From: an uncultured Desulfatitalea sp.
Lineage (GTDB): Bacteria > Desulfobacterota > Desulfobacteria > Desulfobacterales > Desulfosarcinaceae
DNA: 64,000 bases
NCBI GenBank assembly: GCA_937868765.1
Contig: CALMNL010000005.1
Location: 124,001-188,000 of the forward strand
Reading direction: 5' to 3'
How positions within the stretch are numbered: the first letter of the stretch is position 1; every line of letters begins with the position of its first letter. A program made the translations under genes and the position numbers. Below, piece by piece: positions 6,277-11,433 of the stretch. The notes under the pieces were generated by a model. It was given only the letters and a program-made list of their open reading frames with translations, had not been told where the DNA came from and did not search any database.

Positions 6277-7986
6277 ATGGACCGTATCTGGATGAAGCAC
6301 TGGCCCGAATTCATTCCCCAGGAAGTGACCTATCCCAAAGGCAAAAAACCTGTTTTCGAGTACCTCCGCGACAACGCCCGGGATTTTCCCGACCGCACCG
6401 CCATCATCTTCTACGGCAGGCAGGTCACCTACGCCGAGCTCGACCGCATGTCCGAGCAGTTCGCCCGCTTGCTCCTGGATCGCGGCCTGAAAAAAGGGGA
6501 TCGGGTCGCCCTCTTCATGCCCAGCTGCCCCCAGTACCACATCGCCCACTACGGCATCTGCAAGATGGGCGGCGTGATCGTGCCGTGCAGCCCGCTCTTC
6601 AAGCAGTGGGAACTGGCCTATCAGCTGCGCGATACGGATACGGCGACCATCGTCACCCTCGACCTGCTCTACCCGGTGGTGGCCGCCGCGCGTAGCGAGT
6701 GCACCAGCGACACCGTCATCTGCACCAGCTTCCACGACATGCTGCCCAAAACGCCCACCATGAACCTGATTCCCATGATGGCCGTCCCCAAGCAGACGCC
6801 CCCCGACACGCTGGATTTCATGGAGATGCTCGCGCACTACCCGAACGACCCGGTGCGCTGCGATGTGGGCCTCGACGACACCGTGCAACTGCAGTTCACC
6901 GGCGGCACCACGGGCCTGCCCAAGGGCGCCGTGCTGACCCATGGCGGCAAGCTGTTCAAGGTGGCGGCGCTGCTGAGCGTGCTGGACGGCAACATGGCGC
7001 ACCTGGGGCACCCGGGCGGCGCCGTCACCACTCTGGCCATCCTGCCCACCTTTCACATCGCCGGGATGCTGGGGGCCGTGGACACCATGATCGCCCAGGG
7101 CGCCACCCAGGTGCTGATGACCATGTTCGACCCGCTGGCCGCCATGCAGGCCATCGATCGCTACAAGGTCCAGTTCTTTCAGGCGGCCGTGCCCATGAAC
7201 CTGGGCATCATGGCCCATCCCGAGCGCCGCAAGTACGACCTTTCCTCGCTCAAACTGTGCCTGACCACCAGCTTCGGCGTGCAGCTCACCGACGAGATCG
7301 TCCGGCGCTGGACCGCCGACACCGGCGGTTGCCTGCTGGCCGAAGCCGCCTATGGATTGACCGAGACCCACACCTTCGATACCTTCATGCCCCTGAATCG
7401 GCCCAAGTACGCCCCCGGCTGCCAGGGCATCCCCATCCCCGGCCAGCAGATCAAGATCGTCTCCTGGGAAGAGCGCACCCGCGAGATGCCCGTGGGCGAG
7501 ATGGGCGAGATCGCCCTCAAGAACCCGGCCGTGCTCAGAGGCTACTGGAACCGTCCCCAGGAGACGGCCAAGGACCTTGTGGACGGATGGGTCTTTACCG
7601 GCGACATGGGCCGCTTCGACGAGGACGGCTACCTTTATTTCCTGGGACGCAAGAAGGAGATGATCAAGGTGTCGGGCTTCAGCGTCTTCCCCGAAGAGGT
7701 GGAGACCTTCCTGATGCAGCACGAGGCCGTGGACAAGGTGGCGGTCATCGGCGTCGCCGATCCCAAGAAGGGCGAGGTGATCAAGGCCTTCGTCGTACCC
7801 AAACCGGCCTTCAAGGACAAGATCGACGGAGCGGCCATCATCGAATGGGCCAAGTCGCGCATCTCGTCGTACAAGGTGCCCCAGGAGGTGGCGTTCCGGG
7901 ACGAGCTGCCCATGAGCGGCGTGGGCAAGATCCTGCGCCGGGTGCTGGTGGACGAAGAGGTGAAGAAAGGCGGGGGGGCCGCCTAG
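6277..7986 (+). CDS. AMP-forming acyl-CoA synthetase (long/medium-chain fatty acid-CoA ligase type)
   Basis: 569 residues, the usual length of class I adenylate-forming acyl-CoA ligases. The P-loop-like T-G-G-T-T-G-L-P-K-G-A motif lies near 208, Y-G-L-T-E-T near 363, the ATP-ribose aspartate motif T-G-D-M-G near 441, the hinge G-R-K-K-E-M-I-K near 457 and the C-terminal catalytic lysine in G-K-I-L-R-R. It activates a carboxylic acid with ATP and CoA in the cytoplasm. The AGGAGG ribosome site and tight spacing after the TetR gene suggest an operon. Chain length of the substrate cannot be read from sequence alone. Confidence 0.9.
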   Translation: MDRIWMKHWPEFIPQEVTYPKGKKPVFEYLRDNARDFPDRTAIIFYGRQVTYAELDRMSEQFARLLLDRGLKKGDRVALFMPSCPQYHIAHYGICKMGGVIVPCSPLFKQWELAYQLRDTDTATIVTLDLLYPVVAAARSECTSDTVICTSFHDMLPKTPTMNLIPMMAVPKQTPPDTLDFMEMLAHYPNDPVRCDVGLDDTVQLQFTGGTTGLPKGAVLTHGGKLFKVAALLSVLDGNMAHLGHPGGAVTTLAILPTFHIAGMLGAVDTMIAQGATQVLMTMFDPLAAMQAIDRYKVQFFQAAVPMNLGIMAHPERRKYDLSSLKLCLTTSFGVQLTDEIVRRWTADTGGCLLAEAAYGLTETHTFDTFMPLNRPKYAPGCQGIPIPGQQIKIVSWEERTREMPVGEMGEIALKNPAVLRGYWNRPQETAKDLVDGWVFTGDMGRFDEDGYLYFLGRKKEMIKVSGFSVFPEEVETFLMQHEAVDKVAVIGVADPKKGEVIKAFVVPKPAFKDKIDGAAIIEWAKSRISSYKVPQEVAFRDELPMSGVGKILRRVLVDEEVKKGGGAA

Positions 7987-8015: not shown

Positions 8016-9269
8016 TCATTGGGCGGTGCCGGCCGTGGAGGCTTCCGCCGCCGGCAACGCCATTTCCTGCTCGATCTCCTTCATGGCGCGCTTCATCTGG
8101 CGCAGGGCCTGGCGGATGCGGTGCTCGTTTTCCACCAGGGCGATGCGCAGGTAGCCTTCGCCCTCCTCGCCGAAGCCGATGCCCGGCGCCAGGGCCACGT
8201 TGGCGCGTCTCATCATCTGGATGGAAAACTCCATGGAGCCCATGCGGTCGAAGGGGGCCGGGATCTTGGCCCAGACGAACATGCCGGCCTTGGGCCGGGT
8301 GATGGGCCAGTCCATGCGTTCCAGGCCTTCGCACAGCACGTCCCGGCGGTTCTGGTAGATGTGGGCCTGGTGGATCACATCCTCGTCGCAGTGGCGCAAC
8401 GCCACGATGCCGGCCACCTGGATGGCCGAAAAGATCCCATAGTCGTAGTAGCCCTTGATCTTGCGCAAGCCGGCCACCATCTCTTTATTGCCCAGGCAGT
8501 AGCCCAGGCGCCAGCCGGCCATGTTGTAGCTCTTGGAGAACGAGCCGAACTCCACGCCCACCTCCATGGCGCCCGGCACCTGCAGGAAGCTGGGGGCCAC
8601 GTAGCCGTCGAAGGTGATCTTGTTGTAGGCGAAATCGTGGATCACCATGAAGCCGTATTTCCTGGCCAGGTAGACCACCCGCTCGTACAGTTCGAGGCTG
8701 CCCAGGACGCCCGTGGGGTTGTGGGGGTAGTTCAAAATCAGCACCTTGGGCCGGGGATAGACGTTGCTGCACATGACTTCCAGGTGCTTGATGAAGGCCT
8801 GCTCCTCTTCCAAAGGGATGCGCAGCACGCTGCCGCCGGCGATGATGGCGGCATAGATGTGCACCGGAAAGGCCGGGGCCGGCACCAGCACCGTGTCCCC
8901 CGGTCCGATGAGGGCCAGGCACAGGTGGGAGATGCCCTCCTTGGAGCCGATGGTGCACATCACCTCGGAGTCGGGCTCCAGATCCACCCCGTAATCCTTC
9001 TTGTAGGATTTGGCGATCTCGATGCGCAGGTTGCGCATGCCGTAGGCCACCGGGTAGCGATGGGTCTTGGGGTCGTTGGCCGCCTCCAGCAGCTTGGCGA
9101 TCACCGGCTCGGGGGCCGGGTCCACGGGGTTGCCCATGCCCAGATCGATGACATCGTCCCCTTTCCAGCGTTTTTCCATCTTCATCTGGTTGATCATGCC
9201 GAAAAGGTAGGGCGGCAGTTGGGACATCCGCTGGGCGAATTGAATGGATGGTTTGTCTGATGGCGCCAT
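8016..9269 (-). CDS. alaC: Class I/II PLP aminotransferase, AlaC-type (alanine-forming)
   Basis: 417 residues, fold-type I aminotransferase. The PLP lysine is K246 in S-F-S-K-S-Y-N-M-A-G-W-R. Also visible are N-Y-P-H-N-P-T-G (substrate/PLP contacts near 180-187), D211 and Y214 in H-D-F-A-Y-N-K, and the C-terminal Y-L-R-I-A-L-V-E arginine that binds the substrate carboxylate. It most resembles AlaC glutamate-pyruvate transaminases; LL-diaminopimelate aminotransferase is the main alternative in this family. The alanine-codon-rich leader peptide upstream supports alanine as the relevant product. AAGGAG precedes the ATG. It has its own promoter, so it is probably separate from the hydrolase cluster upstream on the same strand. 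Confidence 0.88.
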   Translation of the reverse strand: MAPSDKPSIQFAQRMSQLPPYLFGMINQMKMEKRWKGDDVIDLGMGNPVDPAPEPVIAKLLEAANDPKTHRYPVAYGMRNLRIEIAKSYKKDYGVDLEPDSEVMCTIGSKEGISHLCLALIGPGDTVLVPAPAFPVHIYAAIIAGGSVLRIPLEEEQAFIKHLEVMCSNVYPRPKVLILNYPHNPTGVLGSLELYERVVYLARKYGFMVIHDFAYNKITFDGYVAPSFLQVPGAMEVGVEFGSFSKSYNMAGWRLGYCLGNKEMVAGLRKIKGYYDYGIFSAIQVAGIVALRHCDEDVIHQAHIYQNRRDVLCEGLERMDWPITRPKAGMFVWAKIPAPFDRMGSMEFSIQMMRRANVALAPGIGFGEEGEGYLRIALVENEHRIRQALRQMKRAMKEIEQEMALPAAEASTAGTAQ

Positions 9270-9292: not shown

Positions 9293-9325
9293 AAGCCCCG
9301 GACCGCTGGTTTCGATCCGGGGCTT
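9293..9325 (-). terminator. Attenuator-like hairpin in the alaC leader
   Basis: Perfect 10-bp arms (9293-9302 with 9316-9325) around a 13-base loop, 23 bases upstream of the alaC start codon. On the minus strand the stem is followed by TTTCATTT, a weak T-tract. It lies downstream of the leader peptide stop. The arm that starts AGCCCC can alternatively pair with a GGGCT segment between the leader stop and the hairpin, giving a possible antiterminator. Confidence 0.6.
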
Positions 9326-9387
9326 CAAACAGAGCGCCGCGGACCGACCGTTACAGCCCGTGGCGTGGTTTCAACGAGGTGCTTTTG

Positions 9388-9459
9388 CTACTCGCCGCCT
9401 TCCGCCCGAGCTGTGCTGCGCGCGGCGGCCGCGGCATCCAGATACTGCTTCGATCTCAT
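9388..9459 (-). CDS. Alanine-rich leader peptide upstream of alaC
   Basis: A 23-codon frame, ATG at 9459 and TAG at 9388-9390, on the same strand as alaC. Residues 9-13 are five consecutive alanines (codons GCC GCG GCC GCC GCG), with two more alanines at 17 and 19. It lies between a sigma-70-like promoter and a hairpin that precedes alaC. An AGG-containing stretch lies about eight bases before the ATG. This is the arrangement of ribosome-mediated attenuation leaders: scarce charged tRNA-Ala would stall the ribosome in the alanine run and favour read-through into the alanine-forming transaminase. The reading frame is seen directly; the mechanism is inferred. Confidence 0.65.
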   Translation of the reverse strand: MRSKQYLDAAAAARSTARAEGGE

Positions 9460-9490
9460 AAGCCCGACCTGCTTTCCTTAAAGTCCCCTG

Positions 9491-9520
9491 ACTATAAAGA
9501 GGGGCGGACAATCTTGTCAA
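9491..9520 (-). promoter_or_regulatory. Sigma-70-like promoter for the alaC leader
   Basis: On the minus strand TTGACA (9515-9520) is separated by 17 bases from TTATAG (9492-9497), or by 18 from TATAGT. It ends next to the stop codon of the upstream hydrolase gene and would give a leader of about 215 bases before alaC. Confidence 0.6.
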
Positions 9521-10462
9521 TCAAATTTTAGGGCCCAGCGCGGCCCGTTTGCGTTTGGCCGAGAGGGCATACCGGACCATGCCGCATTTCCGGCCGTACT
9601 CGGTGGAAACGCGCGATACCAGAGTCAGCGGCAGAAACCATCGGCCCCGGGGCAGGGGTTCGGCCGCCGGGGCGTGATCGTGCCCCAAATCCACCTCGGC
9701 GCAGGCCACGCCGGATTTGCCGGAAATCAGGGCAACCGCTTCGCCCCGGGCATCGACGATCACCGAGGTATCGACAAAATCCGCCGTGAATTGGAGGCCG
9801 AGACTCATGGGCAGCGTGCTGGAGAAGCGCCCCGTCTTGTTGCAGGCCACCACCGGCACCGCCAGGCGTCGGGCATAGAGCGCCGCGGTGTTTTTATACA
9901 CTTCCACCCAGTTGTCCCGGTCCCCCTTGAGGAAGAAGGCCGGCAGCGCGGGGCAGGAGTACTGCAGCAGCAAGATCTCCGGGCGGTTTTGAATCAGGCT
10001 CCTAATCGTGTGCGTCTTGGAGGTGTCGAAGCAGATGGCGATGCCGATGCGGCCGATGGGCGTGTCGAAGACGTTGGGGCTCAGCCCGCCGCCCTTGAAG
10101 AAAAAGGCTTCGCAGGCGGCCGGCTCGATCTTGCGATGGGACCATACTTCGCCGTTCGGCCCGCACAGGATGAAGGTATCGAAGAAATCCGCGCCGTCCT
10201 TTTCCAGGATGCAGGTGGCGATATAGACGCCATGCTGACGGCACAGCCCATCGAGCCATTGGCAGGTCCGTCCCCGCAGGGGCTCGGCAGCCTCCCAGAT
10301 CGTGTCGTCGTAGACGTAGCCCGCCAGGGCGAATTCGGGCAACGAAACGAGTCGGGCGCCCGCCCGCACCGCTTCGAGGATGTGGGCTTCGGCCCGCCGG
10401 CGATTGCCTTCCCAGTCGTCATTTCTGGATTCCATCTGAACTGCAGCGACGGTGAGTTTCAT
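9521..10462 (-). CDS. Carbon-nitrogen hydrolase (nitrilase superfamily)
   Basis: 313 residues with the nitrilase-superfamily catalytic triad visible in order: Glu in S-L-P-E-F, Lys in H-R-K-I-E-P, and Cys in G-I-A-I-C-F-D. It probably hydrolyses an amide or carbamoyl bond in a small cytoplasmic metabolite, and the substrate cannot be named. The start at 10462 has an AGGAG site and gives M-K-L-T-V-A-A-V-Q-M, the normal family N-terminus; the open frame extends further upstream without merit. It is the last gene of a four-gene minus-strand cluster and lies 32 bases after the DUF3786 gene. Confidence 0.87.
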   Translation of the reverse strand: MKLTVAAVQMESRNDDWEGNRRRAEAHILEAVRAGARLVSLPEFALAGYVYDDTIWEAAEPLRGRTCQWLDGLCRQHGVYIATCILEKDGADFFDTFILCGPNGEVWSHRKIEPAACEAFFFKGGGLSPNVFDTPIGRIGIAICFDTSKTHTIRSLIQNRPEILLLQYSCPALPAFFLKGDRDNWVEVYKNTAALYARRLAVPVVACNKTGRFSSTLPMSLGLQFTADFVDTSVIVDARGEAVALISGKSGVACAEVDLGHDHAPAAEPLPRGRWFLPLTLVSRVSTEYGRKCGMVRYALSAKRKRAALGPKI

Positions 10463-10494
10463 GATCGCTCCTGTCAAAGTTCTTCCGATGAGGG

Positions 10495-11433
10495 TTACGA
10501 CCCCGCGGCCGCGCGGCCGACGGAGATGTCGCCGAAGGCCAGCGCCACCCGGTTGACCAGGGCCCAGATGGCGTCCGCCGCCAGGATGGTCTCGATGGGG
10601 CGGTCGAACAGCACCTGCAGGCGGGGCTTGAACTCCTCGTCCCCCTGCCACAAGAGAAAGTAGAGTGCCAGGCGCGGAAAGGGCAGCAATTGGTAGGCGG
10701 CATCGGCCAAGGGCATGGGCTTGCCGCCCAGGGCCAGGCAGGCCTTTTGAAATCCCGGCAGATCCTGGCCGAAGCGTCTGCGGATTGGATCGGTGCGGAA
10801 TACGTGGGGGCCGGTGAAGAAATGGCCCTCCTTGAGATCCTTGCCCGAAACGATATCCTGGCCCAGGGGATGGACCGCCTGGACGTTCTTCAGATAGAGC
10901 ACGGTGGCCAGGGCCAGCAAGGGGTCTTTTACCGCTGTCCATCGGCCCCCGGGCTCCGGGCGCAAAAGGGTGCGCGCCCCCAGATCGATGCGGAGCTCTT
11001 CGTTGAGAAACCGGAACTGGAAACAGGCCGGCCCCGCCGCTTCGAAAAAGGTGAGGTTGCACACCGTCAAGGGGTCCCGTTGGGCCGCCGCCTGCCAGTA
11101 GGCTTCGTCCACCGCGAGGTGCGAACCGTCCGGGGCATAGGCCTTGGGCGCCTCTTGCAGCCGCCGGCGCTGCATGGAGAGAAAGGCCCCGCTGAAGGGG
11201 TAGGGGCCGCTGCTGAAATTCTCGCAGGGGAACTGGCTGCAATCGGCCATGCAGTGGCGCACGCGATTGAGCCGGGCGCAGGCCAGGATGGGGCAGGGGC
11301 TGCCCAGAATGCGCTCCTGGGCCGCGGCCTTGGCGGCGGCCGTATCGCCGTCGCCCGGCCCGCAGGTCGAACAGACCCCCTTGAGATTGAGCTTGCACAC
11401 ATCGCAGTCGATGCCGCAGGCGCCGGTGGGCAT
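10495..11433 (-). CDS. DUF3786 protein with N-terminal cysteine-rich domain
   Basis: 312 residues. The N-terminal 65 residues contain many cysteines in CxxC-type spacings (C6, C10, C13, C21, C24, then C-P-I-L-A-C and C-M-A-D-C-S-Q-F-P-C), as in DUF3795-type metal or Fe-S binding regions. Residues 120-300 resemble DUF3786, a family common in anaerobes and often next to corrinoid or one-carbon genes. No catalytic role is known. GAGGAGG precedes the ATG. Its position inside the NMN adenylyltransferase-like and hydrolase cluster is unusual and gives no firm functional clue. Confidence 0.8.
   Translation of the reverse strand: MPTGACGIDCDVCKLNLKGVCSTCGPGDGDTAAAKAAAQERILGSPCPILACARLNRVRHCMADCSQFPCENFSSGPYPFSGAFLSMQRRRLQEAPKAYAPDGSHLAVDEAYWQAAAQRDPLTVCNLTFFEAAGPACFQFRFLNEELRIDLGARTLLRPEPGGRWTAVKDPLLALATVLYLKNVQAVHPLGQDIVSGKDLKEGHFFTGPHVFRTDPIRRRFGQDLPGFQKACLALGGKPMPLADAAYQLLPFPRLALYFLLWQGDEEFKPRLQVLFDRPIETILAADAIWALVNRVALAFGDISVGRAAAGS

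Follow-up and report, generated by a model that had tools for sequence, protein, structure and literature searches.

The minus strand of the window, by which we mean the whole stretch of 64,000 nucleotides that was analysed, very probably carries a ribosome-mediated transcription attenuator that senses the charging of tRNA-Ala and controls a single, probably alanine-forming transaminase gene. In its most likely form, the element is a classical cis-acting alanine attenuator with a hairpin chain resembling that of the his leader, which is old in Desulfobacterota and absent in some of its clades. The features of the locus are listed in Table 1.

Table 1. Features of the leader and its surroundings in the window
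Feature	Position	Strand	Remarks
Sigma-70-like promoter (putative)	9491..9520	(-)	TTGACA 9520-9515, 18-nt spacer, TATAGT 9496-9491; recognised by sequence only
Predicted leader ORF, 23 aa, MRSKQYLDAAAAARSTARAEGGE	9388..9459	(-)	stop TAG 9390-9388; Ala run kept in orthologues, N-terminus varies
Putative regulatory codons GCC GCG GCC GCC GCG (segment 1)	9421..9435	(-)	can pair with GGCGGC 9399-9394 (pairing 1:2)
Segment 2 (ACAGCTCGGGCG), left arm of the putative antiterminator	9403..9414	(-)	pairs with segment 3 (9365-9353)
Hairpin P3 (segments 3:4), CGCCACGG ... CCGCGGCG	9335..9365	(-)	terminator-like, covarying stem
Alternative pairing 4:5	9312..9347	(-)	would block P4; arms TCGGTCCG 9347-9340 plus GGC 9338-9336, with GCC 9323-9321 plus CGGATCGA 9319-9312
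Hairpin P4 (segments 5:6), AAGCCCCGGA ... TCCGGGGCTT	9293..9325	(-)	10 perfect pairs; proposed terminator
Shine-Dalgarno sequence (SD) AAAGGAG	9284-9278	(-)	outside P4, which ends 8 nt before it
AlaC-type class I aminotransferase, 417 aa	8016..9269	(-)	ATG at 9269; proposed regulated gene
Acyl-CoA synthetase-like gene after the aminotransferase	6277-7986	other strand	

A preliminary description of this DNA had claimed a promoter of the sigma-70 type, a 23-residue frame with five consecutive alanines and a perfect 10-bp hairpin, in this order on the minus strand before the aminotransferase gene. All three were found again in that arrangement, and the promoter matches 11 of the 12 consensus letters. 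A second hairpin (9365-9335) and a segment complementary to its left arm (segment 2, 9414-9403) had been missed. The attenuation layout proposed at the time is supported by the conservation and by the covarying pairings described below, but it consists of two alternating hairpins of the his type, not of one; a single hairpin as the whole switch was replaced by the two-hairpin chain after relatives had been compared.

Neighbouring segments of the leader can pair in a chain, in which the Ala codons pair with the end of the ORF (1:2), followed by 2:3, 3:4 (P3), 4:5 and 5:6 (P4). The calculated duplex energies in the window are − 22.2 kcal/mol for 2:3 and − 19.0 kcal/mol for 4:5, while P4 reaches − 25.8 kcal/mol with borders set one base wider on each side. 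P3 of the window contains a single A x C mismatch (9361/9339). The folding of the 215-nt leader as a whole gave z = − 3.46, and none of 200 shuffles was as good. The acyl-CoA synthetase-like gene that follows lies on the other strand, and the aminotransferase unit therefore looks monocistronic. The gene upstream of the promoter (9521-11398, minus strand) matches the nitrilase / N-carbamoylputrescine amidase families with 80 bits, which is below the cut-offs, and its open frame extends about 310 codons upstream beyond the matched nitrilase-type domain.

The leader recurs upstream of orthologous aminotransferase genes. For the close set, 60 related genomes were searched, all of which gave some match at E 0.001, and 21 orthologous loci with about 64% identity or more, including that of the window, were collected. 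As L021 is cut off before the gene start, 20 were assessable, and a leader with four or five consecutive Ala codons lies upstream in 19 of these, the window included. L017 has a TTGACA promoter-like site near the gene and no leader, which makes it a natural comparison for constitutive expression. The Desulfatitalea-like L009 carries the intact Ala leader and both hairpins, with about 200 nt extra before the aminotransferase start. None of nine paralogues at about 50% identity (L022-L030), which served as a negative control, has a short ORF with an Ala run or any other four-residue run upstream.

A second set comprised the best 80 of 569 relatives, from which four (L068, L087, L095 and L101) with at most 101 nt of upstream sequence were excluded. 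Among the 76 assessable orthologues of this named set, 30 have an Ala-run leader and 46 do not. The hairpin model described below matches with E < 1e-4 on the gene strand in the same 30, and the other 46 have neither leader nor hairpins; since 28 of the 30 hairpin sequences are part of the model's own alignment, this is a joint presence-absence table and not a blind test. Nine carriers of the named set are genomes also present in the close set. L036 has three alanines only, and L045, with an AAA frame elsewhere and no hairpin match, was not counted among the 30. Carriers include Desulfatitalea, Desulfosarcina, Desulfoluna, Desulfobulbus elongatus, Desulfogranum, Desulforhabdus and Desulfacinum. 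The non-carriers include the Desulfobacula/Desulfotignum/Desulfamplus clade, nine rows labelled Desulfocapsaceae, Desulfobulbus alkaliphilus and 12 assessable orthologues from Planctomycetes.

Relatives with the gene but without frame and hairpin had been named in the preliminary description as evidence against the attenuator. Such relatives are the 46 of 76 given above (best 80 of 569), but they are clustered. On a tree of 77 aminotransferases, presence and absence are explained by five changes, and none of 500 label shuffles was as low, so that loss by clade accounts for the absences better than chance presence does. The Desulfobacterota branches nearest to the root carry the element, on a tree that was midpoint-rooted and in which several forks are weakly supported. 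The simplest reading is one old gain followed by several losses, with regains possible. A scan of viral contigs yielded six matches, which are distant or partial.

The run of alanines comprises three residues in one, four in eight, five in 23 and six in seven of 39 distinct leaders. A GC-rich leader might encode alanines and lie next to an ordinary hairpin by chance, given that Ala runs arise more easily in GC-rich DNA and that the upstream frame ends immediately before the promoter of the window. We regard this as practically negligible. When 40 leader regions were each shuffled 200 times at the dinucleotide level, a short ORF with AAAA arose in a mean of 0.14% and a maximum of 1% of cases, and in none of the 200 shuffles for the leader region of the window. 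The recurrence in close and named orthologues as well as the covarying alternative stems also argue against coincidence. A chance Ala run was thus ruled out by shuffles and conservation. For the promoter, the scan found two promoter-like sites in 3.2 kb, compared to a mean of 0.4 in shuffles. When the rule for the -10 box was loosened, sites matching 9 or more of the 12 letters were present in 37 of the 39 leaders whose upstream sequence was long enough (one of the 40 was omitted), against a shuffle background of 438/1950.

Covariation was tested on 40 leaders in 21 lineage groups, by comparing the native duplexes with duplexes dealt between groups in 5000 permutations. Permutations as good as the native state numbered one for 1:2, four for 2:3 and none for 3:4, 4:5 and 5:6, with lineage groups set by the authors and P3 borders drawn by hand in 25 of the 40 leaders. 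The corresponding numbers for non-neighbouring controls were 1872 (1:4), 3611 (2:5), 426 (3:6) and 848 (2:4). All five neighbouring pairings co-vary, whereas the four controls do not. For L090 and L091, the P4 border had been misplaced by the automatic procedure; both entered the permutations uncorrected and were corrected for folding and for the 1:2 test. The compensation can be followed in single lineages: in the Desulfoluna group, segment 3 reads GGGTTGAC and is matched by GTCAACCC or GTCAACTC in segment 2, and in L074 GGACTG in segment 3 faces CAGTCC in segment 2.

A hairpin-model alignment was built from 36 of the 40 leaders (L009, L011, L016 and L036 were left out). In this alignment, 91.1% of the cells in the P3 and P4 stems are paired, compared to 31.9-55.1% for slid structures, and 42 double changes were counted in these cells versus 13.9 in shuffled data. 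The covariation score of both stems is 0.288 versus 0.186 (0/500 shuffles).

The pairing between segment 1 and the end of the ORF co-varies, and translation of the leader is a prediction. The leader could accordingly be an untranslated riboswitch or protein-binding RNA, in which the Ala codons are merely one arm of the structure. This is very improbable in light of the codons themselves. The 192 Ala codons of 39 distinct leaders are distributed over GCC (84), GCG (71), GCA (27) and GCT (10), so that GC is kept at codon positions 1-2 while all four Ala codons are used. Both the residues before the Ala run and the distance from the start to the run vary among the leaders, while the run itself is kept. 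Neither the window nor 16 leader loci contain an Rfam leader, riboswitch or T-box at gathering score, and all ten sub-threshold Rfam matches are below the gathering scores; a riboswitch or T-box was rejected as a candidate for this reason. The hairpin model also finds runs of Trp, Phe/Tyr and Leu codons before fitting genes, which a fixed aptamer would not be expected to show. The preliminary description had suggested looking in relatives for conservation of the alanine run and of alternative stems. Both are conserved, with different Ala codons and N-termini and with the five covarying pairings.

According to the proposed mechanism, RNA polymerase would start at the promoter at 9520-9491 and a ribosome would follow on the leader ORF. 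With ample Ala-tRNA, the ribosome would pass the Ala codons and reach the stop, 3:4 and 5:6 would pair, and transcription would end at P4, helped by P3 where the latter has a U-tract. Under a shortage of Ala-tRNA, the ribosome would wait on the Ala codons, segment 2 would be free and 2:3 would pair. The freed segment 4 would then pair with segment 5 as the RNA grows, the terminator would form too late, and the aminotransferase would be made.

Folding of complete leaders favours 5:6 over 4:5 in 30 to 39 of 40 cases regardless of the ribosome position. An equilibrium switch is therefore unsupported, and the switch would have to be kinetic. In complete leaders without a ribosome, 2:3 is favoured over 3:4 in 16 of 40, including the window, which speaks against default termination there through 1:2 and 3:4. 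Growing transcripts were folded as a more favourable test, chosen after the folding of complete leaders had given no clear switching. If the ribosome is placed on the second Ala codon, all 40 leaders form 2:3 when segment 3 is out. Only 9 of 40 favour 2:3 over 3:4 when segment 4 has just emerged, compared to 30 of 40 when segment 5 is out. In this last state, 30 of the 40 leaders also form four or more pairs of 4:5. For a ribosome at the stop, 3:4 has a mean of 10.4 pairs, and four or more pairs of 4:5 form in 4 of 40; these folds removed all upstream RNA, so that 2:3 had no possibility of forming. The distance from the Ala run to the stop is 30-45 nt in most leaders (33 nt in the window) and 18 nt in L040 and most members of the Desulfosarcina group. 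Where it is 30-45 nt, segment 2 may be covered only partly by a ribosome that has reached the stop.

In the window, 4:5 wins over 3:4 after segment 5 has emerged, even if the ribosome has reached the stop. The mismatch in P3 is the probable cause. P3 and P4 do form in the complete leader with the ribosome at the same position. The folding of the window shows no clean switch.

The tails of the hairpins bear on how the signal would be executed. P3 is followed by CUCUGUUUG in the window and by a U-tract in many relatives. The tail of P4 is UCAUUUG in the window, without a clean U-tract, while the Desulfosarcina group and several further relatives have a run of T behind P4. Neither P3 nor P4 is among the calls of a terminator scan of the window. 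An alternative is that alanyl-tRNA is indeed the signal and that control acts mainly on translation or via Rho, with the stalled ribosome altering access to the start or shielding Rho sites. The interrupted U-tracts of the window and its genus and the spacing of 8 nt between P4 and the SD are in favour of this; nevertheless, the SD lies outside P4, and T runs directly follow P3 or P4 in several relatives. We consider such control unlikely, with a small share of probability left to it. For transcription attenuation, which we prefer, the broken tails indicate that termination may be weaker or assisted in the genus of the window.

A covariance model of P3-P4, which does not include the Ala codons, was used to scan 30 family, 389 order and 395 phylum genomes, the sets of which overlap. 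Matches were obtained in 17 family genomes (E 0.01), 76 order genomes and 48 phylum genomes (E 0.001 for both); in the order and phylum scans, 12 candidates per genome were scored under strict filters. At or above 49.8 bits, a limit set after the fact by where loci returned, 39 distinct places with loci were found, 16 of which are outside the training set, several being close relatives of training sequences. Fifteen of the 16 have an Ala-run leader and the aminotransferase downstream, with L125 being the L009 locus and the gene match of L148 being broken. At the remaining place, L167, a Trp leader precedes a TrpB-like gene. In L156, the aminotransferase follows 1.7 kb further on, behind an insertion with a resolvase-like ORF and another long ORF (L200:520-2421). 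An insertion of this size should uncouple the Ala attenuator from the aminotransferase in that genome. Six leaders of this aminotransferase gene (L127-L132) score below the limit, at 32-49 bits. The genome of the window itself has one strong match of 68 bits, with the next at 23 bits, which suggests a regulon of one gene.

A further 27 matches that were examined (L133-L138, L167, L169-L188) are not located before this aminotransferase. An AAAA ORF is absent from the 170 nt upstream of every one of them, and the AAA found in L173 is part of a Trp leader. Among the other loci, 25 were examined as siblings, and the repeated codons fit the gene behind them in 13. Nine of these are Trp siblings (L167, L169-L171, L173-L175, L178 and L187) with runs such as WIWW, WWWW and WVWWW. 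Their proteins share similar starts, and the four that were run against NCBIfam are TrpB-like. They have two tandem GCCATGG-type hairpins and come from other families of Desulfobacterota, and judging from these features they are apparently trp attenuators on a similar scaffold. L177, L182 and L186 have tandem hairpins and Tyr/Phe-rich leaders (RFYFYYF, YWFYYG and YFYWFYTYF) before the gene for DAHP synthase (3-deoxy-7-phosphoheptulonate synthase), and L180 has tandem hairpins and a MRLFQLLTLCLKLLVPG leader before leuA (2-isopropylmalate synthase). The remaining 12 of the 25 loci comprise the Ala leader L156, L172, which is TrpB-like by its protein start and shows no run, L185, with a short WWW frame before a protein unlike a tryptophan gene, and others without a clear link.

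A common attenuator design for several amino acids in Desulfobacterota is suggested by these loci. Tentatively, and with limited confidence, we propose that a two-hairpin scaffold as old as the phylum serves as a modular attenuator in which the sensor codons were swapped (Ala for AlaC, Trp for TrpB-like proteins, Phe/Tyr for DAHP synthase and Leu for leuA), the alanine member being the first classical cis alanine attenuator. If this were true, the codons of a leader could reveal the amino acid made by an unassigned transaminase.

The best NCBIfam match of the window aminotransferase is the alanine transaminase PRK08175, with 505.3 bits and thus below the cut-off of 647. Models of LL-diaminopimelate (LL-DAP) aminotransferase follow closely (PRK09148 with 478.8 bits, cut-off 648), and none of the 25 matches listed reaches its curated cut-off. 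The nearest solved chain is 2x5d with 415 bits, which is named P. aeruginosa AlaC in the portion of the source consulted (PMC4094517). Based on its family, the enzyme probably forms alanine. The attenuator might instead read alanine as a general gauge of nitrogen or pyruvate while the enzyme mainly performs another transamination, for example in LL-diaminopimelate synthesis; the nearly equal scores and the lack of a match over cut-off among those 25 are in line with this. To such a role we assign a low probability. The window aminotransferase scores only 129.1 bits with TIGR03542 (LL-DAP aminotransferase, cut-off 364.7), whereas a separate gene in the same genome reaches 577.7 bits against the same cut-off, so the LL-DAP role seems to be filled. 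In addition, the repeated residue matches the gene behind it in just over half of the sibling loci (13 of 25), which supports the Ala run as a sign of an alanine enzyme. An alanine-forming enzyme is hence the preferred assignment, and the leader independently suggests this product for an aminotransferase subfamily that the models place between alanine transaminase and LL-diaminopimelate aminotransferase.

Among the matches listed from the open-licence literature, we found no cis leader-peptide attenuator for alanine synthesis, with an earlier mention being possible, and no attenuator paper on bacteria of the Desulfobacterota type. A comparative survey of attenuation reportedly published by Lopatovskaya et al. 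in 2010 could hold an alanine case. The element would extend ribosome-mediated attenuation to alanine and appears to be old in one phylum.

The his operon attenuator of enteric bacteria (Rfam His_leader) consists of a leader ORF with cognate codons, alternating segments and a terminator before the structural gene. The window element shares the run of cognate codons, the chain of alternating segments and the putative terminator before the structural gene, but it has Ala instead of His codons, precedes one aminotransferase gene, gives no Rfam match and belongs to a different phylum. T-box leaders of alanyl-tRNA synthetase genes in Firmicutes read the charging of tRNA-Ala, as the window element would; they differ in that they bind the tRNA directly and have no leader ORF. 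The trp, leu, ilv and thr leaders of proteobacteria act by ribosome-mediated attenuation, with stalling on cognate codons. Leader peptides of Actinobacteria are likewise described, in the parts of the source seen, as acting by ribosome-mediated attenuation (PMC1262725), and its main text contains neither 'alanine' nor 'ala'. The principle of stalling is the same in these leaders, and the amino acid sensed is another one.

The preliminary description had stated that no alanine attenuator of this type was known. This holds for cis-acting control of an alanine gene among the literature matches listed, but an alanine-linked case exists in the mycobacterial whiB7 leader. According to the passages seen of PMC13236596, this leader is a uORF attenuator tied to alanine, in which stalling in the uORF induces expression. 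The same passages describe whiB7 as a transcription factor that also responds to an antibiotic and whose programme includes the alanine biosynthesis gene aspC, and the title of Poulton et al. 2024, cited therein, links whiB7 to alanine starvation. Both systems would thus use ribosome stalling in a uORF to induce expression, with a connection to alanine starvation; as far as those passages go, whiB7 differs in being a trans-acting circuit of Actinobacteria that runs via a transcription factor instead of attenuating an alanine gene in cis. The Trp, Phe/Tyr and Leu siblings from the same phylum are found by the same model and have the two tandem GCCATGG-type hairpins in common with the window element, from which they differ in their codons, their genes and their mostly lower scores (32-55 bits).
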